Source: a bacterium
GTDB lineage: Bacteria; CAYTYR01; UBA6262
Reading direction: 5' to 3'
DNA length: 36,799 nucleotides
NCBI GenBank assembly: GCA_028712895.1
Contig: JAQTPL010000019.1
Span: forward strand, 1 to 36,799
The notes below the pieces were generated by a model, which was given only the letters and a program-made list of their open reading frames with translations, made no database searches and was not told where the DNA came from. This document shows, piece by piece, positions 1 through 16,511 of the stretch. Each line of letters begins with the position of its first letter. Position 1 is the stretch's first letter. The position numbers and the translations under genes were made by a program.

Positions 1-936
1 TTGCCGTTTACTTTAACCCTGAGCCTGCCCATGGCCACTCTGCTGGCTATTCTGCTGGCCTTGGGCCGTCTTAACCAGGATAATGAGATCACCGCTATCA
101 AGGCCAGCGGTGTATCCACCTTGCGGCTCATGACCCCCCTGCTGATAACGTGTGTCCTGCTCTCATTGGTCGGAGTTTATTTTAACGATTGGGTAGTGCC
201 GGCAGCAAACCATAAATTTAAAAATCTGTATATGGAGATCATTTACCGTCAGCCGGTGTTAAAGCTGGAAGAGCGCACTTTTATCGAATTGCAGGATACC
301 CGGCTTTATTTTGAATCAATAGATAAAAAGGCCTCTACGTTTAAAGGCGTGATCATTTACCGGAATGAAAAGGACGGCCTGCCGCTAATGATCACTGCCC
401 AGGACGGGAATTTCCACAGCGACCAGAAACAGGGATTAGTACTGGAGCTGCATAATGGGGCGCGGCACATGGTGGACAAGAATGATTTTTTAAAGTATAA
501 CCGTATTTTCTTCAAGACCTATTCCATGCTGATTAACCTGGCCCAGGATGCGCCTAAAGATGCCATCCGTTATAAAAGTCTGCGGGAAATGAACAAGAAT
601 GAATTAGGCACTGAGATTCAGCGCCTGCGGGACAGTAATATCAAACATAATACCCTCTTGGTAGAATATCACTTGCGTAATGTTATTCCTTTTGCCTGTC
701 TCACCTTTGCCTTGATCGCTATACCGCTGGGATTAAGGCCAAAACAAACTACTAAAGGCCTTGGTTTCGGTATGAGCCTGATCTTGATCATAGTTTACTA
801 CACTATCCTAATCTCTGGCATGACTGCCGGGGAGCGCGGTATGATCAAGCCGGCTATTGCCATTTGGCTGCCAAATTTACTCATCGGTTTTGCCGGGATA
901 TTATTTTCGATTAAAGTAATACGAGGGAAAGTATAA
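1..936 (+). CDS. lptF: LptF-type LPS export permease (5' truncated)
   Basis: YjgP/YjgQ-family permease. With LptG and the ATPase LptB it forms the inner-membrane ABC exporter that extracts LPS and feeds the Lpt bridge. The reading frame is open at base 1, so the first codon (TTG) is internal. About 60 residues, including the first membrane segment, are missing compared with the usual 360-390. Visible are a membrane segment ending in GRLNQDNEITAIKASG, the conserved segment that follows TM2-3 in this family, a periplasmic beta-jellyroll region (about residues 60-190), and three C-terminal membrane segments. The stop TAA (934-936) is followed by lptG on the same strand. LptF rather than LptG is assigned from gene order and similarity; the two are paralogues, so the letter is less certain than the family. 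Confidence 0.88.
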   Translation: MPFTLTLSLPMATLLAILLALGRLNQDNEITAIKASGVSTLRLMTPLLITCVLLSLVGVYFNDWVVPAANHKFKNLYMEIIYRQPVLKLEERTFIELQDTRLYFESIDKKASTFKGVIIYRNEKDGLPLMITAQDGNFHSDQKQGLVLELHNGARHMVDKNDFLKYNRIFFKTYSMLINLAQDAPKDAIRYKSLREMNKNELGTEIQRLRDSNIKHNTLLVEYHLRNVIPFACLTFALIAIPLGLRPKQTTKGLGFGMSLILIIVYYTILISGMTAGERGMIKPAIAIWLPNLLIGFAGILFSIKVIRGKV

Positions 937-939
937 AGC

Positions 940-1026
940 AGTTTTAAGTTATAAGTTTTGAGTTTTAAGTTAAGGTAAAATGCTTTTTTTCAATAATTCA
1001 AAACTAAACACTCAAAATTCAAAATT
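940..1026. repeat. Heptamer inverted array A1 (lptF-lptG spacer)
   Basis: Five consecutive heptamers of type AGTTTTR fill 940-974 without a gap; the third and fifth vary, the last being AGTTAAG. A loop begins GTAAAATGCTTTT (975-998). Four heptamers of the inverse type CAAAAYT then fill 999-1026. The two arms are approximately complementary, so transcript or single-stranded DNA could fold into a long AT-rich hairpin. The array starts 3 nt after the lptF stop. The loop contains an in-frame ATG (980) that would extend lptG with repeat-encoded residues. Confidence 0.85.
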
Positions 1027-1048
1027 GTATTTTTGGGAGATTGGCACA

Positions 1049-2137
1049 GTGAAGCTTATTGATCGTTATGTATTAAAACAATATGGGCAGGCTTTTCTCT
1101 TTGCCATCAGCTGTTTCGCCCTGGTGGCCCTGATCTCCCAATTTTTTGATAAGATAGACACTTTTTTGAATTATAAGACCCCTCCTTACCGGATCATTAT
1201 CTATCTTTTGTACCGCTTGCCTTTCTGGCTGGTACAAGTAATGCCTGTGGCGACTTTGTTAGCTACCCTGTTTTCTCTCAGTAATATGCTCCGTCATAAT
1301 GAACTTACCGCCATGAAAGCTTCTGGTTTAAGCCTTTATCGCATCTTATTATCCTTGTTTATCTTTACCCTGATCTTAAGCGGTTTGACTTTCCTCTTCA
1401 ATGAAACCCTGGCTTCACCGCTGGAATATAAGGCAAAATTATACGAAAAGCACCAGATCCGTCATGAAGAAGGACTTGATTACCTGCACCGTAACAATGT
1501 CATTCACCTGGGGCAGAATAACCGCATTTATTTTATCAAGTCCTTTAACGGGCAGCATAGCATAATGAAAGATGTACAAATTGATGAATTTAACAGCACC
1601 CATAACCTGGTGAAGCAAATCGTGGCTAAATCAGGGCAGTGGCAGGACAACCAATGGATCTTCAGCGATGGGATCATCCGGGAATTTGACCAGCAAGGGA
1701 AAAATATCATTAAAGAAGAAAAATTTACGTCCATCAAGCCTGACTTGCCGGAAAAGTCCGGCGATTTTCTGCGGGAGGCTAAAAAGTCTACGGAAATGGA
1801 TTACCAGGAGCTTAAAGACTATATCATCCGCTTGCGCAGGAATGGACTCCCAGCCAACAAGGAACAGGTTGAGCTGGCGCTTAAATTCTCCTACCCCTTT
1901 GCTAATCTAGTGACCTTGCTGATCGGCATACCCTTTGCCTTGTGGACTAAACAATCCAGCAAAGTCATGAATTTTGGCACAGGAATGGCTATTGCCTTTA
2001 TTTTCTGGGGGACGATAGAAATCGGGCACGCTTTAGGAGAGAATAAAGTTTTATCACCAGTACTGGCAGCCTGGCTCTCTAATATAATGTTCAGCAGTAT
2101 GGGTGTCTGGCTGCTTGTGAAAAAGGTTAGAAAATAA
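1049..2137 (+). CDS. lptG: LptG-type LPS export permease
   Basis: Second YjgP/YjgQ-family permease, partner of LptF in the LptB2FG exporter. At 362 residues it has the normal family length: TM1 near residue 12-35, further TMs to about 110, a periplasmic jellyroll (about 130-250), and three C-terminal TMs. The conserved cytoplasmic segment NMLRHNELTAMKASG is present. I place the start at GTG 1049: GGGAG at 1035-1039 is a well-spaced ribosome site, and KLIDRYVLKQYGQAF is the usual N-terminus of the family. The earlier in-frame ATG at 980 lies in the loop of repeat array A1 and would add 23 residues that are merely translated repeat. The next gene is convergent. Confidence 0.93.
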   Translation: MKLIDRYVLKQYGQAFLFAISCFALVALISQFFDKIDTFLNYKTPPYRIIIYLLYRLPFWLVQVMPVATLLATLFSLSNMLRHNELTAMKASGLSLYRILLSLFIFTLILSGLTFLFNETLASPLEYKAKLYEKHQIRHEEGLDYLHRNNVIHLGQNNRIYFIKSFNGQHSIMKDVQIDEFNSTHNLVKQIVAKSGQWQDNQWIFSDGIIREFDQQGKNIIKEEKFTSIKPDLPEKSGDFLREAKKSTEMDYQELKDYIIRLRRNGLPANKEQVELALKFSYPFANLVTLLIGIPFALWTKQSSKVMNFGTGMAIAFIFWGTIEIGHALGENKVLSPVLAAWLSNIMFSSMGVWLLVKKVRK

Positions 2138-2144
2138 AAAAAAC

Positions 2145-2230
2145 AGTGTTGAGTGTTGAGTGTTAAGTTTTGAGTTAAGGTAAAATGCTTTTCACCATAA
2201 TTCAAAATTCAAAACTCAAAATTCAAAACT
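2145..2230. repeat. Heptamer inverted array A2 (between convergent lptG and M6 protease)
   Basis: Same architecture as A1: five heptamers (AGTGTTG, AGTGTTG, then AGTGTTA, AGTTTTG, AGTTAAG) at 2145-2179. The loop begins with the same GTAAAATGCTTTT (2180-2202), and four heptamers CAAAAYT occupy 2203-2230. It lies 7 nt after the lptG stop and 10 nt from the stop of the convergent protease gene, so it could act as a shared two-way transcription end. The fold is AT-rich and imperfect, so that role is inference. Confidence 0.85.
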
Positions 2231-2240
2231 GCTTTATTGT

Positions 2241-3953
2241 CTATCTCAAGATCGCTACTTTGCCTATTTTGCTTTTATTATCCGCTTTATACCAGTAGAG
2301 ATAGATTCCGCTGGCTACTTTATCGCCATTTTCATTTCTGCTATCCCAGACATAGGTATACTCTGCCCTATTATCAGAGACAGCTACCTGCCTGATCTCC
2401 CCGGTTTTCGCTTCTCTGATCAATTCTCCATTTAAACTATAAATTTTTAATTTAATGTTACTAGTTTCCGCCAGGTTGGTGGTGACAATCTTAAGAGTAG
2501 CTTGGCCAGTCTTGCTGGGATTTGGATAACTATAGACATCAGTGATGTCCGGCGACGCGGTAAATGCTGCCTGGTAAATATCAAAAGTCATGGTACTCCC
2601 GCCGGCAGTGCTGATGTTGAGGACACTGAACGGAGATGAATTCTGGTTGTAAGCGTTATTATCAGGGCTCACAAAACTAGTAATATCCCTCGTCCCGGGG
2701 AACGGGTCGCTGGCTTCACTGGTTTTATCTGTATCGTCGGCCTCTACCAAATCTACGGTCCGGTGCGGCACATATGGTTCTGAATTAATTACGTTCAAAT
2801 ATAAAGCAGTGCCGGTATTGCCAAAAGAATCATGGGTTTCATAATCAAGCATGGCATCATCAATGTGCCAGAACAGCAAACCCTCTCCAGGCAGGTACTG
2901 GTCAAAATTCTCCTGGCGCCGGTATTCCACCAAAAAATACTCCTGCCGGCGATCATCGGCTGTTATAGCCGATATCTGATAAATGCTTTGAGCACCTGCT
3001 ACTGTTATATCTACACCTAATTCCTTTTGTGCAAGATTTATCGGCGTTATCCAACCAAGAAACTTTTTACCCCAGGCCCCGATATGAGCCGGACGGGAAC
3101 CATCAAGGGAGAATCCCAGCCATGATCCGCCATCCATCAGGTCCCAATTCCCGACAACGGTAGTCCCGCCAATACTCTGGGTATTATAAAGGTCAGGTAA
3201 ACCCAGGTCATGTCCAAATTCGTGAGCAAATGTGCCTACCGGCGAGTGCTCGCTGAGCATAGTATAATTCTTTACATGCACCCCATCATTGGTCAGGTAT
3301 CCATCGGCATCTGTGCTTACGGTAAAAGAACCGCTGTGCGACCAGATATCATTGGTATCCCTCGAAGTTTCCTGTCCTTCGCCTGCATGAATAATGATCA
3401 CGTGATTCACAATACCGTCGCCATCAAGGTCATACTGGGCAAAATCAATATCAGCGTCTGCTTGCTGTACAGCTTCAATGACCAGGTTAGAGACATCGGT
3501 ATAAAAAGTATCCACCCCGCCGAATCCATCAGCCCCGTAATAAGCCATGCTATGCACGCTCTGATACCAGCGGCTGCCGGTAGTGCCAGTTACAGCCAGT
3601 TGTCCCTCACTGACTTCCTTGAAATAATCATACATACTATAGTACCCTGCATCCTGGCTGAATAACAGGTTATCAAAATAGGACTTTGAATGGCTGGACG
3701 ACGCTGTAACATCTGAAAATTCTATCAGTATAGCTGCCACATCCGCTGTCCCGGTTGTAATAGCCCTCCTGGATACATGCTCTGCAGGCATACGCGGCAT
3801 AGCTAACCGCGGTTTGACAACCAGAGCCTGCATCGCGGGAGATAAAGGACCAGTATCATAAATTAACGGGTGAGGCGGCGCGGCTATTACAGTGGTCAGC
3901 GGACAGCAGACAGCGGTCAGAGAAAGCATAAAAACCAATAAACTTTTTTTCAA
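2241..3953 (-). CDS. Secreted M6-family (immune inhibitor A-like) metalloprotease with C-terminal FlgD/T9SS-like domain
   Basis: Secreted zinc endopeptidase of 570 residues. An N-terminal signal peptide occupies about residues 1-24, followed by a propeptide-like stretch. The catalytic domain carries the zincin motif HEFGHDLGLPD: His244, Glu245, His248, with Asp254 in the extended HExxHxxGxxD position typical of M6. The last roughly 80 residues (from YSYPNPSKTG to the end) form a FlgD-like Ig fold, similar to C-terminal sorting domains of secreted proteins in T9SS-type bacteria. The start is TTG 3953, preceded by AGGAGA at good spacing. The h-region and cleavage end of the signal peptide are encoded by a heptamer array (3891-3918). 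It is convergent with lptG. The natural substrate is unknown. Confidence 0.9.
   Translation of the reverse strand: MKKSLLVFMLSLTAVCCPLTTVIAAPPHPLIYDTGPLSPAMQALVVKPRLAMPRMPAEHVSRRAITTGTADVAAILIEFSDVTASSSHSKSYFDNLLFSQDAGYYSMYDYFKEVSEGQLAVTGTTGSRWYQSVHSMAYYGADGFGGVDTFYTDVSNLVIEAVQQADADIDFAQYDLDGDGIVNHVIIIHAGEGQETSRDTNDIWSHSGSFTVSTDADGYLTNDGVHVKNYTMLSEHSPVGTFAHEFGHDLGLPDLYNTQSIGGTTVVGNWDLMDGGSWLGFSLDGSRPAHIGAWGKKFLGWITPINLAQKELGVDITVAGAQSIYQISAITADDRRQEYFLVEYRRQENFDQYLPGEGLLFWHIDDAMLDYETHDSFGNTGTALYLNVINSEPYVPHRTVDLVEADDTDKTSEASDPFPGTRDITSFVSPDNNAYNQNSSPFSVLNISTAGGSTMTFDIYQAAFTASPDITDVYSYPNPSKTGQATLKIVTTNLAETSNIKLKIYSLNGELIREAKTGEIRQVAVSDNRAEYTYVWDSRNENGDKVASGIYLYWYKADNKSKIGKVAILR
3891..3918. repeat. 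B-family heptamers inside the M6 signal peptide
   Basis: Four contiguous 7-mers (AGTGGTC, AGCGGAC, AGCAGAC, AGCGGTC on +) lie within the coding sequence. They encode roughly residues 12-21 of the protease (LTAVCCPLTT) on the - strand. The words belong to the same family as the array inside the phosphohexomutase gene at 11354-11388. The encoded peptide is hydrophobic enough to remain compatible with export. Confidence 0.75.
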
Positions 3954-6219: not shown

Positions 6220-6255
6220 AAAGACCTCCTTCACCCTAAATTAACTTCCTTTAGC

Positions 6256-6285
6256 ATTATACTCTTCAAACTTTATCTTTGTAAA
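6256..6285 (-). promoter_or_regulatory. Sigma70-type promoter for the lipoprotein-barrel operon
   Basis: On the - strand TTTACA (6280-6285) and a perfect TATAAT (6256-6261) are separated by 18 nt. The predicted start lies about 30 nt before the ATG at 6219. This is the best-matching promoter in the window. Confidence 0.72.
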
Positions 6286-6308
6286 CTATTTTTTTGCTTT
6301 TTCTGTCA

Positions 6309-6336
6309 CCTGCACGCTGTACGCTGTTTGCTGTTT
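6309..6336. repeat. Heptamer array abutting the ahcY stop
   Basis: Four contiguous 7-mers on +: CCTGCAC, GCTGTAC, then GCTGTTT twice. The array ends at 6336, immediately beside the ahcY stop codon (6337-6339, TAA on the - strand). The words are related to the B family found within two genes. No inverse arm is visible here. Confidence 0.7.
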
Positions 6337-7596
<1,260 letters not shown>

Positions 7597-7629
7597 TTAT
7601 CCCTTCCGTTAATACAGTTTTTAATTATG

Positions 7630-7700
7630 AATTTTGAGTTTTGAACTTTCCGCCCTTAAGCCTGGCGAATCCGCCTCAGGCGGAAAAACTTGTAACTGTT
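7630..7700. repeat. Mixed repeat spacer with a CCGCC hairpin (ahcY-metK)
   Basis: The spacer contains A-family heptamers (AATTTTG, AGTTTTG at 7630-7643) on the left. A perfect short hairpin TCCGCC-TCA-GGCGGA lies at 7670-7684, and A-like complementary sequence (AAAACTTGTAACTG) is on the right. It looks like an A-type element carrying a different centre. It does not match a SAM or SAH riboswitch as I know them, and the hairpin has no U-tract behind it on either strand. Confidence 0.55.
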
Positions 7701-8928: not shown

Positions 8929-8942
8929 TCTTTCCCCCTTTG

Positions 8943-9025
8943 GAATTACGAATTACTCGAATGATAGCGAATAAAGGCCAAATACTACATTCGCGATATT
9001 AGCTTAAATTCGTGTTATTCGTGGT
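8943..9025. repeat. D-family array D1 (ACGAAT words)
   Basis: The left arm has GAAT words spaced 7-10 nt apart, including CGAATGATAGCGAAT. The right arm has the inverse ATTCG words, ending ATTCGTGTT then ATTCGTGG. The right edge touches the TGA stop of the nucleotidyltransferase at 9027. It shares GAATGATAGCGAAT and a TTAGCTT core with D2 (11516-11599). The unit is 9-10 nt rather than 7. Confidence 0.72.
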
Positions 9026-9026
9026 T

Positions 9027-11501: not shown

Positions 11502-11515
11502 ACTTATCCTCCGGA

Positions 11516-11599
11516 TACGAATACCACGAATGATAGCGAATTACGCGAATAAGAATATTCGTGTTCTTAGCTTCTTTTCATTCGGTATTTATTCGCTTA
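11516..11599. repeat. D-family array D2
   Basis: Left arm TACGAATAC, CACGAATGAT, AGCGAATTA, CGCGAATAAG (9-10-nt steps); right arm of inverse ATTCG words to 11597. It shares CGAATGATAGCGAAT and the TTAGCTTC-like core with D1. It begins right beside the nucleotidyltransferase stop (TAA, 11600-11602) and ends just before the GGAGGA ribosome site of the mutase gene. Confidence 0.72.
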
Positions 11600-12655: not shown

Positions 12656-12671
12656 GTAAACCTCCGGTTTT

Positions 12672-12753
12672 TTAGCAACTTAGCAACTTTGTTCATGGCA
12701 ACTTAGGTATTAGATTCCTATGAGCTATATTGCTACGAGCTATGAGCTGCTCT
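12672..12753. repeat. C-family array C1 (supplies the epimerase C-terminus)
   Basis: The left arm has TTAGCAAC twice (12672-12687) and a degenerate third unit. An 18-nt loop follows at 12703-12720 (TTAGGTATTAGATTCCTA), then right-arm words of type GAGCTA in steps of 7-8 nt. The right arm overlaps the end of the epimerase gene. It encodes its last residues (AAHSS) and supplies its TAG stop (12733-12735). The loop differs from that of C2 at one base. Confidence 0.8.
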
Positions 12754-13662: not shown

Positions 13663-13677
13663 GCAAAAACCTCCGAG

Positions 13678-13748
13678 TTAGTCTTTAGCTCATAGCAAAT
13701 TAGGTGTTAGATTCCTATGAGCTAAGTTGCTACGAGCTAAATTGCTGT
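13678..13748. repeat. C-family array C2
   Basis: Left-arm heptamers TTAGTCT, TTAGCTC, ATAGCAA (13678-13698); loop TTAGGTGTTAGATTCCTA (13700-13717); right-arm words TGAGCTA, TTGCTAC and GAGCTAA to about 13748. The arms are complementary over TTAGCTCATAGCAA. It ends 2 nt from the stop of the phosphotransferase gene (13751-13753). C1 and C2 occupy consecutive gene junctions in the same orientation. Confidence 0.8.
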
Positions 13749-13750
13749 TT

Positions 13751-16382: not shown

Positions 16383-16401
16383 GTGTTCCTCAAGTACGGA
16401 T

Positions 16402-16511
16402 ACCAGGTTATTAGGTTATCAGGTGGAAGAATATCAGGTTATCAGGTTAATTCCTGATGTCCTGTTAGCCTGATCTCCCCTTCCTGATCACCTGATTACC
16501 TGGTCACCTGT
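16402..16511. repeat. E-family octamer inverted array (supplies a stop codon)
   Basis: Octamers of type ATCAGGTT form the left arm: three at 16402-16425 and two at 16433-16448, split by AAGAAT. After AATT, inverse octamers of type CCTGATNN form the right arm: three at 16453-16476 and three at 16483-16506. On the - strand the last right-arm unit encodes the final Arg and the TGA stop (16504-16506) of the TuaH-like glycosyltransferase. The unit is 8 nt but the layout resembles the heptamer arrays. Confidence 0.85.

Follow-up and report, generated by a model that had tools for sequence, protein, structure and literature searches.

Results and Discussion

The two heptamer arrays in the window (the whole 36,799-nt stretch analyzed, which is contig C26 of a 75-contig, 1.93-Mb assembly) are probably copies of a REPIN-like, non-autonomous palindromic mobile element with its enzyme encoded elsewhere; we assign this reading a probability of roughly 0.55. 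It is favored because of the approximately 24 copies in the genome, the empty lptF/lptG sites of the relatives, the five-unit arms, the common loop ends and flanks, and the unequal arms within single elements. The 66-copy subfamily in a cyanobacterium, the stop-proximal placement, and the palindrome inserted into some of the copies add to the reasons for this preference.

The elements of the window

A first-pass annotation had reported the arrays at 940-1026 and 2145-2230, and they are present exactly there (Table 1). It had described five left and four inverse heptamers around a 23-24-nt loop. Alignment to other copies gave a 5+5 plan instead, with loops of 17 and 16 nt. Four inverse heptamers had been counted because the innermost word, (C/A)ATAATT, was taken for loop sequence; it aligns as the fifth unit, facing AGTTAAG. 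The 5+5 pattern yielded two matches in the window vs. zero in each of 100 dinucleotide-preserving shuffles. The heptamer arrays are real, exceed chance, and occur outside the window as well.

The first LptF/LptG-family gene stops 3 nt ahead of element 1. Element 2 lies between the second gene of this family and a convergent gene with an M6 peptidase domain, the stop codon of which adjoins the element. The segment 980-1048 shows an ATG in the element 1 loop, preceded by AAGG and in frame with the downstream lptG-like gene, to which it would add 23 residues. The change in the start codon of that gene from ATG to GTG coincides with the insertion of element 1.

Table 1. Positions of the two elements, their parts, and the neighboring features in the window
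Feature	Position	Strand	Description
LptF/LptG-family permease gene	1..936	+	5' end lost at contig end; Pfam PF03739, E 2.6e-79
Inter-gene stretch holding element 1	937..1048	.	Between the two LptF/LptG-family genes; absent from relatives G001 and G003
Element 1, whole	940-1026		5+5 heptamer near-palindrome
Element 1, left arm	940..974	+	AGTTTTA AGTTATA AGTTTTG AGTTTTA AGTTAAG
Element 1, loop	975..991	+	GTAAAATGCTTTTTTTC; 17 nt
Element 1, right arm	992..1026	-	Five inverse heptamers, AATAATT innermost
Second LptF/LptG-family permease gene	1049..2137	+	GTG start after element 1; Pfam PF03739, E 1.5e-83; orthologues in relatives
Element 2, whole	2145-2230		5+5 heptamer near-palindrome
Element 2, left arm	2145..2179	+	AGTGTTG AGTGTTG AGTGTTA AGTTTTG AGTTAAG
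Element 2, loop	2180..2195	+	GTAAAATGCTTTTCAC; 16 nt; sister of element 1 loop
Element 2, right arm	2196..2230	-	Five inverse heptamers, CATAATT innermost
Convergent gene, M6 peptidase domain	2241..3953	-	Secretion-tail-like C terminus; Pfam PF05547, E 9.4e-33
Probable decayed relative	7616..7643	+	Four left heptamers, broken by another palindrome

Copies and common plan

The first-pass annotation had proposed a genome-wide search for further copies. In genome searches and retrieved stretches, on which all genome-wide statements here rest, 24 distinct loci reached E ~1e-3 or better across the 1.93 Mb; a few decayed loci came in addition. The searches combined blastn using element 2 with a covariance model (R1) built from 19 of the 24 loci, which therefore match it by construction; blastn with element 2 alone recovered other copies with E values down to 5e-20. 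Dozens of matches were present in a same-genus and a same-family genome.

The supposition of a defined element was borne out by this multiplicity and by the arm length that the copies keep. Exactly five units were present in 85 of the 106 arms parsed from this genome, the same-genus G001, and the same-family G003. Among the remaining arms, three or four had six or seven units, and the others had three or four units. In these three related genomes, 36 of 53 elements were exactly 5+5. Most of the left arms found had an inverse partner nearby, which is not the character of purely direct arrays of the STRR or TAACTGA type. The element measures approximately 85 bp, with a short loop between inverted arms of 35 nt each.

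Each arm unit follows the plan A-R-T-N-N-N-N (consensus ARTTTTR), with A at position 1 and T at position 3 in 99-100% of the units; variation within a small vocabulary is confined to positions 2 and 4-7. The innermost word of an arm begins with ARTT, ends in AAG, TAG, ATG, or similar, and is followed by GGT. Outside the arms, the copies share the flanks AAAAGC and GCTTTT. The loop varies from about 9 to 44 nt, with recurring GGT...ACC ends. The fixed loop suggested by the first-pass annotation did not hold up, as only these outer trinucleotides are common; the interiors are unrelated outside sister groups, and the two window copies are sisters. The arms listed for the 8-kb loci included no obvious full-length parent, in which distant arms would flank a gene. 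At L043, L034, L050, and L049, a second palindrome (CCTGTCCCCGCGTCTTTGATTTGTCC...GGACAAATCAGCAGGGG) was inserted into heptamer elements or replaced half of them.

Gain and turnover at gene junctions

Between codirectional genes, with gene ends taken from a simple ORF caller, the element starts at a median of 4 nt after the stop codon and ends at a median of 18 nt ahead of the next start. In G001, the stop of the first LptF/LptG gene overlaps the start of the second (GTGTAATGAAG), and element 1 is absent. The two genes also overlap in G003, which likewise has no element 1. Its absence from both relatives therefore indicates a gain in the present lineage. Comparison of the filled and empty lptF/lptG sites revealed no clear target-site duplication of the kind left by a simple MITE of a classical transposon, and approximately 22 extra nt beside the element. 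The site of element 2 holds an element in G001 (words AGTTGCG/AGTTTCG), none in G003, and only 19 nt in G002.

Searching G001 and G002 with the flanks of another 20 copies allowed up to 19 junctions to be compared. Against the sister species G001, 19 sites were judged by eye, including elements 1 and 2; one was read as empty (lptF/lptG), and nearly all the others as carrying a repeat-word hairpin. In the same classification by eye, about three of the filled G001 sites had similar words, and the rest had another AGT/GGT vocabulary or a different family, such as CGTATAG heptamers, octamers (e.g., GGNNATCA), or longer units. The comparison covers the junctions filled in this genome. If sites were occupied independently at the rate of the window (~11 of 29 junctions), an occupancy of 17/18 would have P ~1e-6, a figure that ignores the limits on where insertion is tolerated. 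The first-pass annotation had envisaged arms drifting by word replacement. Words do change in phase, but the turnover is more drastic, since a sister species usually holds another vocabulary or repeat family at the same junction.

This turnover bears on an alternative in which the elements are generated in place: old sites would be inherited, while replication slippage, template switching, or gene conversion between copies kept altering their words. The 17-18 of 19 sites that are also filled in G001, often with wholly different words, speak for it, as do sites C43 and C56, where related-looking loops accompany different words. However, the lptF/lptG junction is a clean gain, the single vocabulary with common flanks and loop ends throughout the genome requires transfer between loci, and families of another period at some sites are beyond editing in place. 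We consider this alternative unlikely. The mobile-element reading has its own difficulty here: the words are wholly different at most of the common junctions, so that insertion and drift need replacement in addition.

Unequal arms and base pairing

The two arms of an element were less alike than arms drawn at random in each of the three genomes; in the present one, the likeness was 0.733, compared with 0.791 (sd 0.016) for random arms. The innermost words were identical between the arms in 0 of 36 cases, against 3.9 expected. The arms fall weakly into two types, each element having one arm of either type (score 5971 vs. 5865, sd 33; the best of 60 shuffles reached 5987). Such inequality is consistent with the copying of whole asymmetric elements or with perfect palindromes being selected against, and inconsistent with homogenizing slippage between the arms. 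Pure slippage as the sole cause was ruled out, as the arms of the same element are the least alike. The same observation counts against generation in place, where the arms of one element would be expected to become similar through slippage or template switching.

A second alternative places the function in the transcript. Hairpins would be selected at operon junctions as terminators, mRNA stabilizers, or processing sites, and any family able to supply a hairpin would suffice. The position between a stop codon and the next start, the occupancy kept despite the turnover of content, and the strong folding of element 2 (z = -6.0 and -6.7 vs. shuffles on the two strands) agree with such a role, but the folding of element 1 is weak (z = -1.6 to -1.9 vs. 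shuffles). The pairs also lack covariation: 77.9% of the paired cells were complementary, compared with 81.0% (sd 0.7) when the partners were shuffled, and no element has the same inner word in both arms. No strong U tract was found after the elements, and an Rfam search of the window gave no match. Taken together, selection for transcript hairpins appears improbable as the explanation. The narrower proposal of a conserved RNA stem backed by covariation was rejected, because pairing below the shuffled-partner expectation is the opposite result.

Proposed mobilization

If the arrays are copies of a mobile element, an enzyme encoded elsewhere would recognize the single-stranded hairpin through the phased A1/T3 anchors; both the enzyme and the single-stranded intermediate are inferred. 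Insertion would occur about 4 nt behind stop codons, presumably in many cases within or next to an older repeat hairpin. The copies would afterwards diverge at the non-anchor positions, and the units of one arm would homogenize with neighboring units. Waves of families with different words may then succeed each other at the same junctions. As its two arms are unequal, such an element would possess polarity.

A mobilizing gene was not found. Y1 transposases occur in some of the carriers, and Anaerobacillus and G207 gave no Y1 match; no heptamer arms were located beside the Y1 genes of this genome or lineage. A Y1/RAYT transposase was therefore rejected as the partner, being absent from some carriers and lacking adjoining arms in this lineage.

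Distribution among bacteria

The generic 5+5 pattern matched 13 of the 386 genomes searched, mostly from outside this family, as against five for a reversed control pattern; in the better assemblies, it matched 12 of 326 genera. Three genomes of one family (G033, G181, and G316) match the control, which suggests heptamer hairpins whose anchors are in another phase. At least 111 stretches with the generic pattern come from Cyanobacteria, Bacteroidota, Anaerobacillus, Nitrospirota, Planctomycetota, Proteobacteria, and others, and hairpins of the same plan also occur in Bacillota. Matches in other phyla to model R1 only, among which are words in a different phase such as ATTTTAG in G044, were left out of the family. 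Among IMG/VR viral contigs (L319-L398), 104 stretches match the generic pattern, some contigs repeatedly; these may be phage or misassigned host DNA.

For arms not selected by the pattern, five units were the mode in Bacteroides sp. 519 (18 of 38 arms) and Anaerobacillus (7 of 13), and three units were the commonest in the cyanobacterium Prado104 (15, vs. 11 arms with five units). A strictly fixed unit number was rejected as a universal rule, since arms of Bacteroides are also longer and those of Prado104 also shorter than five units.

Prado104 contains 66 copies sharing a near-constant arm and loop, while the other arm is variable in its words; the constancy is partly due to selection, because the search pattern fixed that arm with at most three mismatches. 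The variable arm has five units in 22 of 30 cases, and contraction to four or three units also occurs, which argues against a fixed five. Neighboring words in this arm are identical in 42 of 79 cases vs. 24.5 expected. Both the identity of adjacent words and the contraction are points in favor of in-place generation. The commonest words of the variable arm (AGTTTTG x4 AATTAAG) equal the X-arm consensus of the present genome, which may reflect either common descent or convergence, 35 nt of low-complexity sequence being too little to distinguish the two.

A broader interpretation, which we put forward tentatively and regard as somewhat less probable than not, is that the mobile elements form a widespread, largely unrecognized class of palindromes. 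Their arms would have to reach about five heptamers (35 nt), the enzyme would read phased anchors and not a fixed sequence, and one word family would replace another at the same sites near stop codons. If true, each genome would display a changing vocabulary at fixed addresses. Earlier reports treated heptamer repeats case by case, as satellites or regulator sites. With the 5+5 plan in several phyla, the insertion, the unequal arms, and the family replacement, they can be tested as a single class of mobile DNA, and the concrete question arises of a protein that recognizes a 35-nt arm by its phase and not by its sequence.

Comparison with known systems

Cyanobacterial short tandemly repeated repetitive (STRR) sequences, with which the first-pass annotation had compared the arrays, are likewise intergenic tandem repeats of heptanucleotides, but they are known as direct arrays. 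Inverse-paired five-unit STRR arms were not found in the literature searched.

Intergenic TAACTGA heptamer arrays have been described in Beggiatoaceae, Cyanobacteria, and Bacteroidetes (MacGregor 2015, PMC4679880). They share with our elements the tandem heptamers and the patchy cross-phylum distribution, and TAACTGA is the rotated reverse complement of the word AGTTATC. In contrast to our elements, those arrays are mostly direct, with 2-6 units and a single inverted case, and related heptamers rarely repeat in that genome (PMC4679880).

In organization, the closest known systems are REPINs (Bertels and Rainey 2011, PMC3116915). Like the present elements, they are extragenic, multicopy, and non-autonomous hairpins made of inverted short repeats and a spacer, with solitary-arm remnants. 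The arms differ: those described here consist of five direct ARTNNNN heptamers, whereas REPIN arms are REP sequences with an imperfect palindromic core and GTAG/CGTC-type heads, the latter named in the title of PMC3733652. REPINs are mobilized by RAYTs, but no linked RAYT was found for our elements.

A further parallel concerns the paired inverse heptamer arms, of which the first-pass annotation had known no case with a fixed loop. The section of Aklujkar et al. 2009 (PMC2700814) on paired putative global-regulator sites of Geobacter metallireducens describes five tandem heptamers for class 3 and four tandem octamers for class 1. The sites form oppositely oriented pairs and are read there as IHF/HU sites. 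Class 3 thus shares the multicopy nature, the five tandem heptamers per site, and the paired opposite orientation with our elements, but its consensus is MTYCTGA and not ARTTTTR (PMC2700814). At the proBA junction, G. sulfurreducens has another repeat than G. metallireducens (PMC2700814). As far as that section of the paper extends, the sites belong to one genome, and cross-phylum spread, insertion, and turnover do not form part of the account (PMC2700814).

The Geobacter interpretation provides a third alternative for our arrays, in which a global regulator or nucleoid protein would bind one protomer per heptamer. The phasing and near-invariance of A1 and T3 would suit it. Against it, copies lie behind stop codons within operons and not at promoters, and the words, even the period, differ at the same junctions of sister species. 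We regard this alternative as very unlikely. The literature searched, where coverage of subscription journals was slight, contained no account of a 5+5 plan recurring in several phyla, nor of arm inequality, of an insertion, or of one family replacing another at fixed junctions.

Other word-repeat palindromes of the genome

In approximately 138 kb (the window and unselected stretches), palindromes of short repeated words, with periods of 7, 8, or 9, occupy many of the 60-200-nt spacers. Folding at z below -3 was calculated for 13 of 35 spacers, some of which are ordinary terminators. The 5+5 heptamer element is one among several palindromic word-repeat families of this genome. At 16383-16503 of the window, a strong octamer hairpin (CAGGTTAT / CCTGATNN) represents a different word-repeat family, and a related octamer hairpin occupies another junction (site C49) in the sister species G001. 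CGAAT-type repeat hairpins with a period of ~9 nt lie between codirectional genes at 8929-9026 and 11502-11599. A short array (GCTGTAC GCTGTTT GCTGTTT) without an inverse arm is located at 6235-6336. Two related spacers at 12656-12743 and 13663-13750 carry TAGCTCATAGCAA / TGAGCTAAGTTGCTACGAGC repeats, which constitute another palindromic family.
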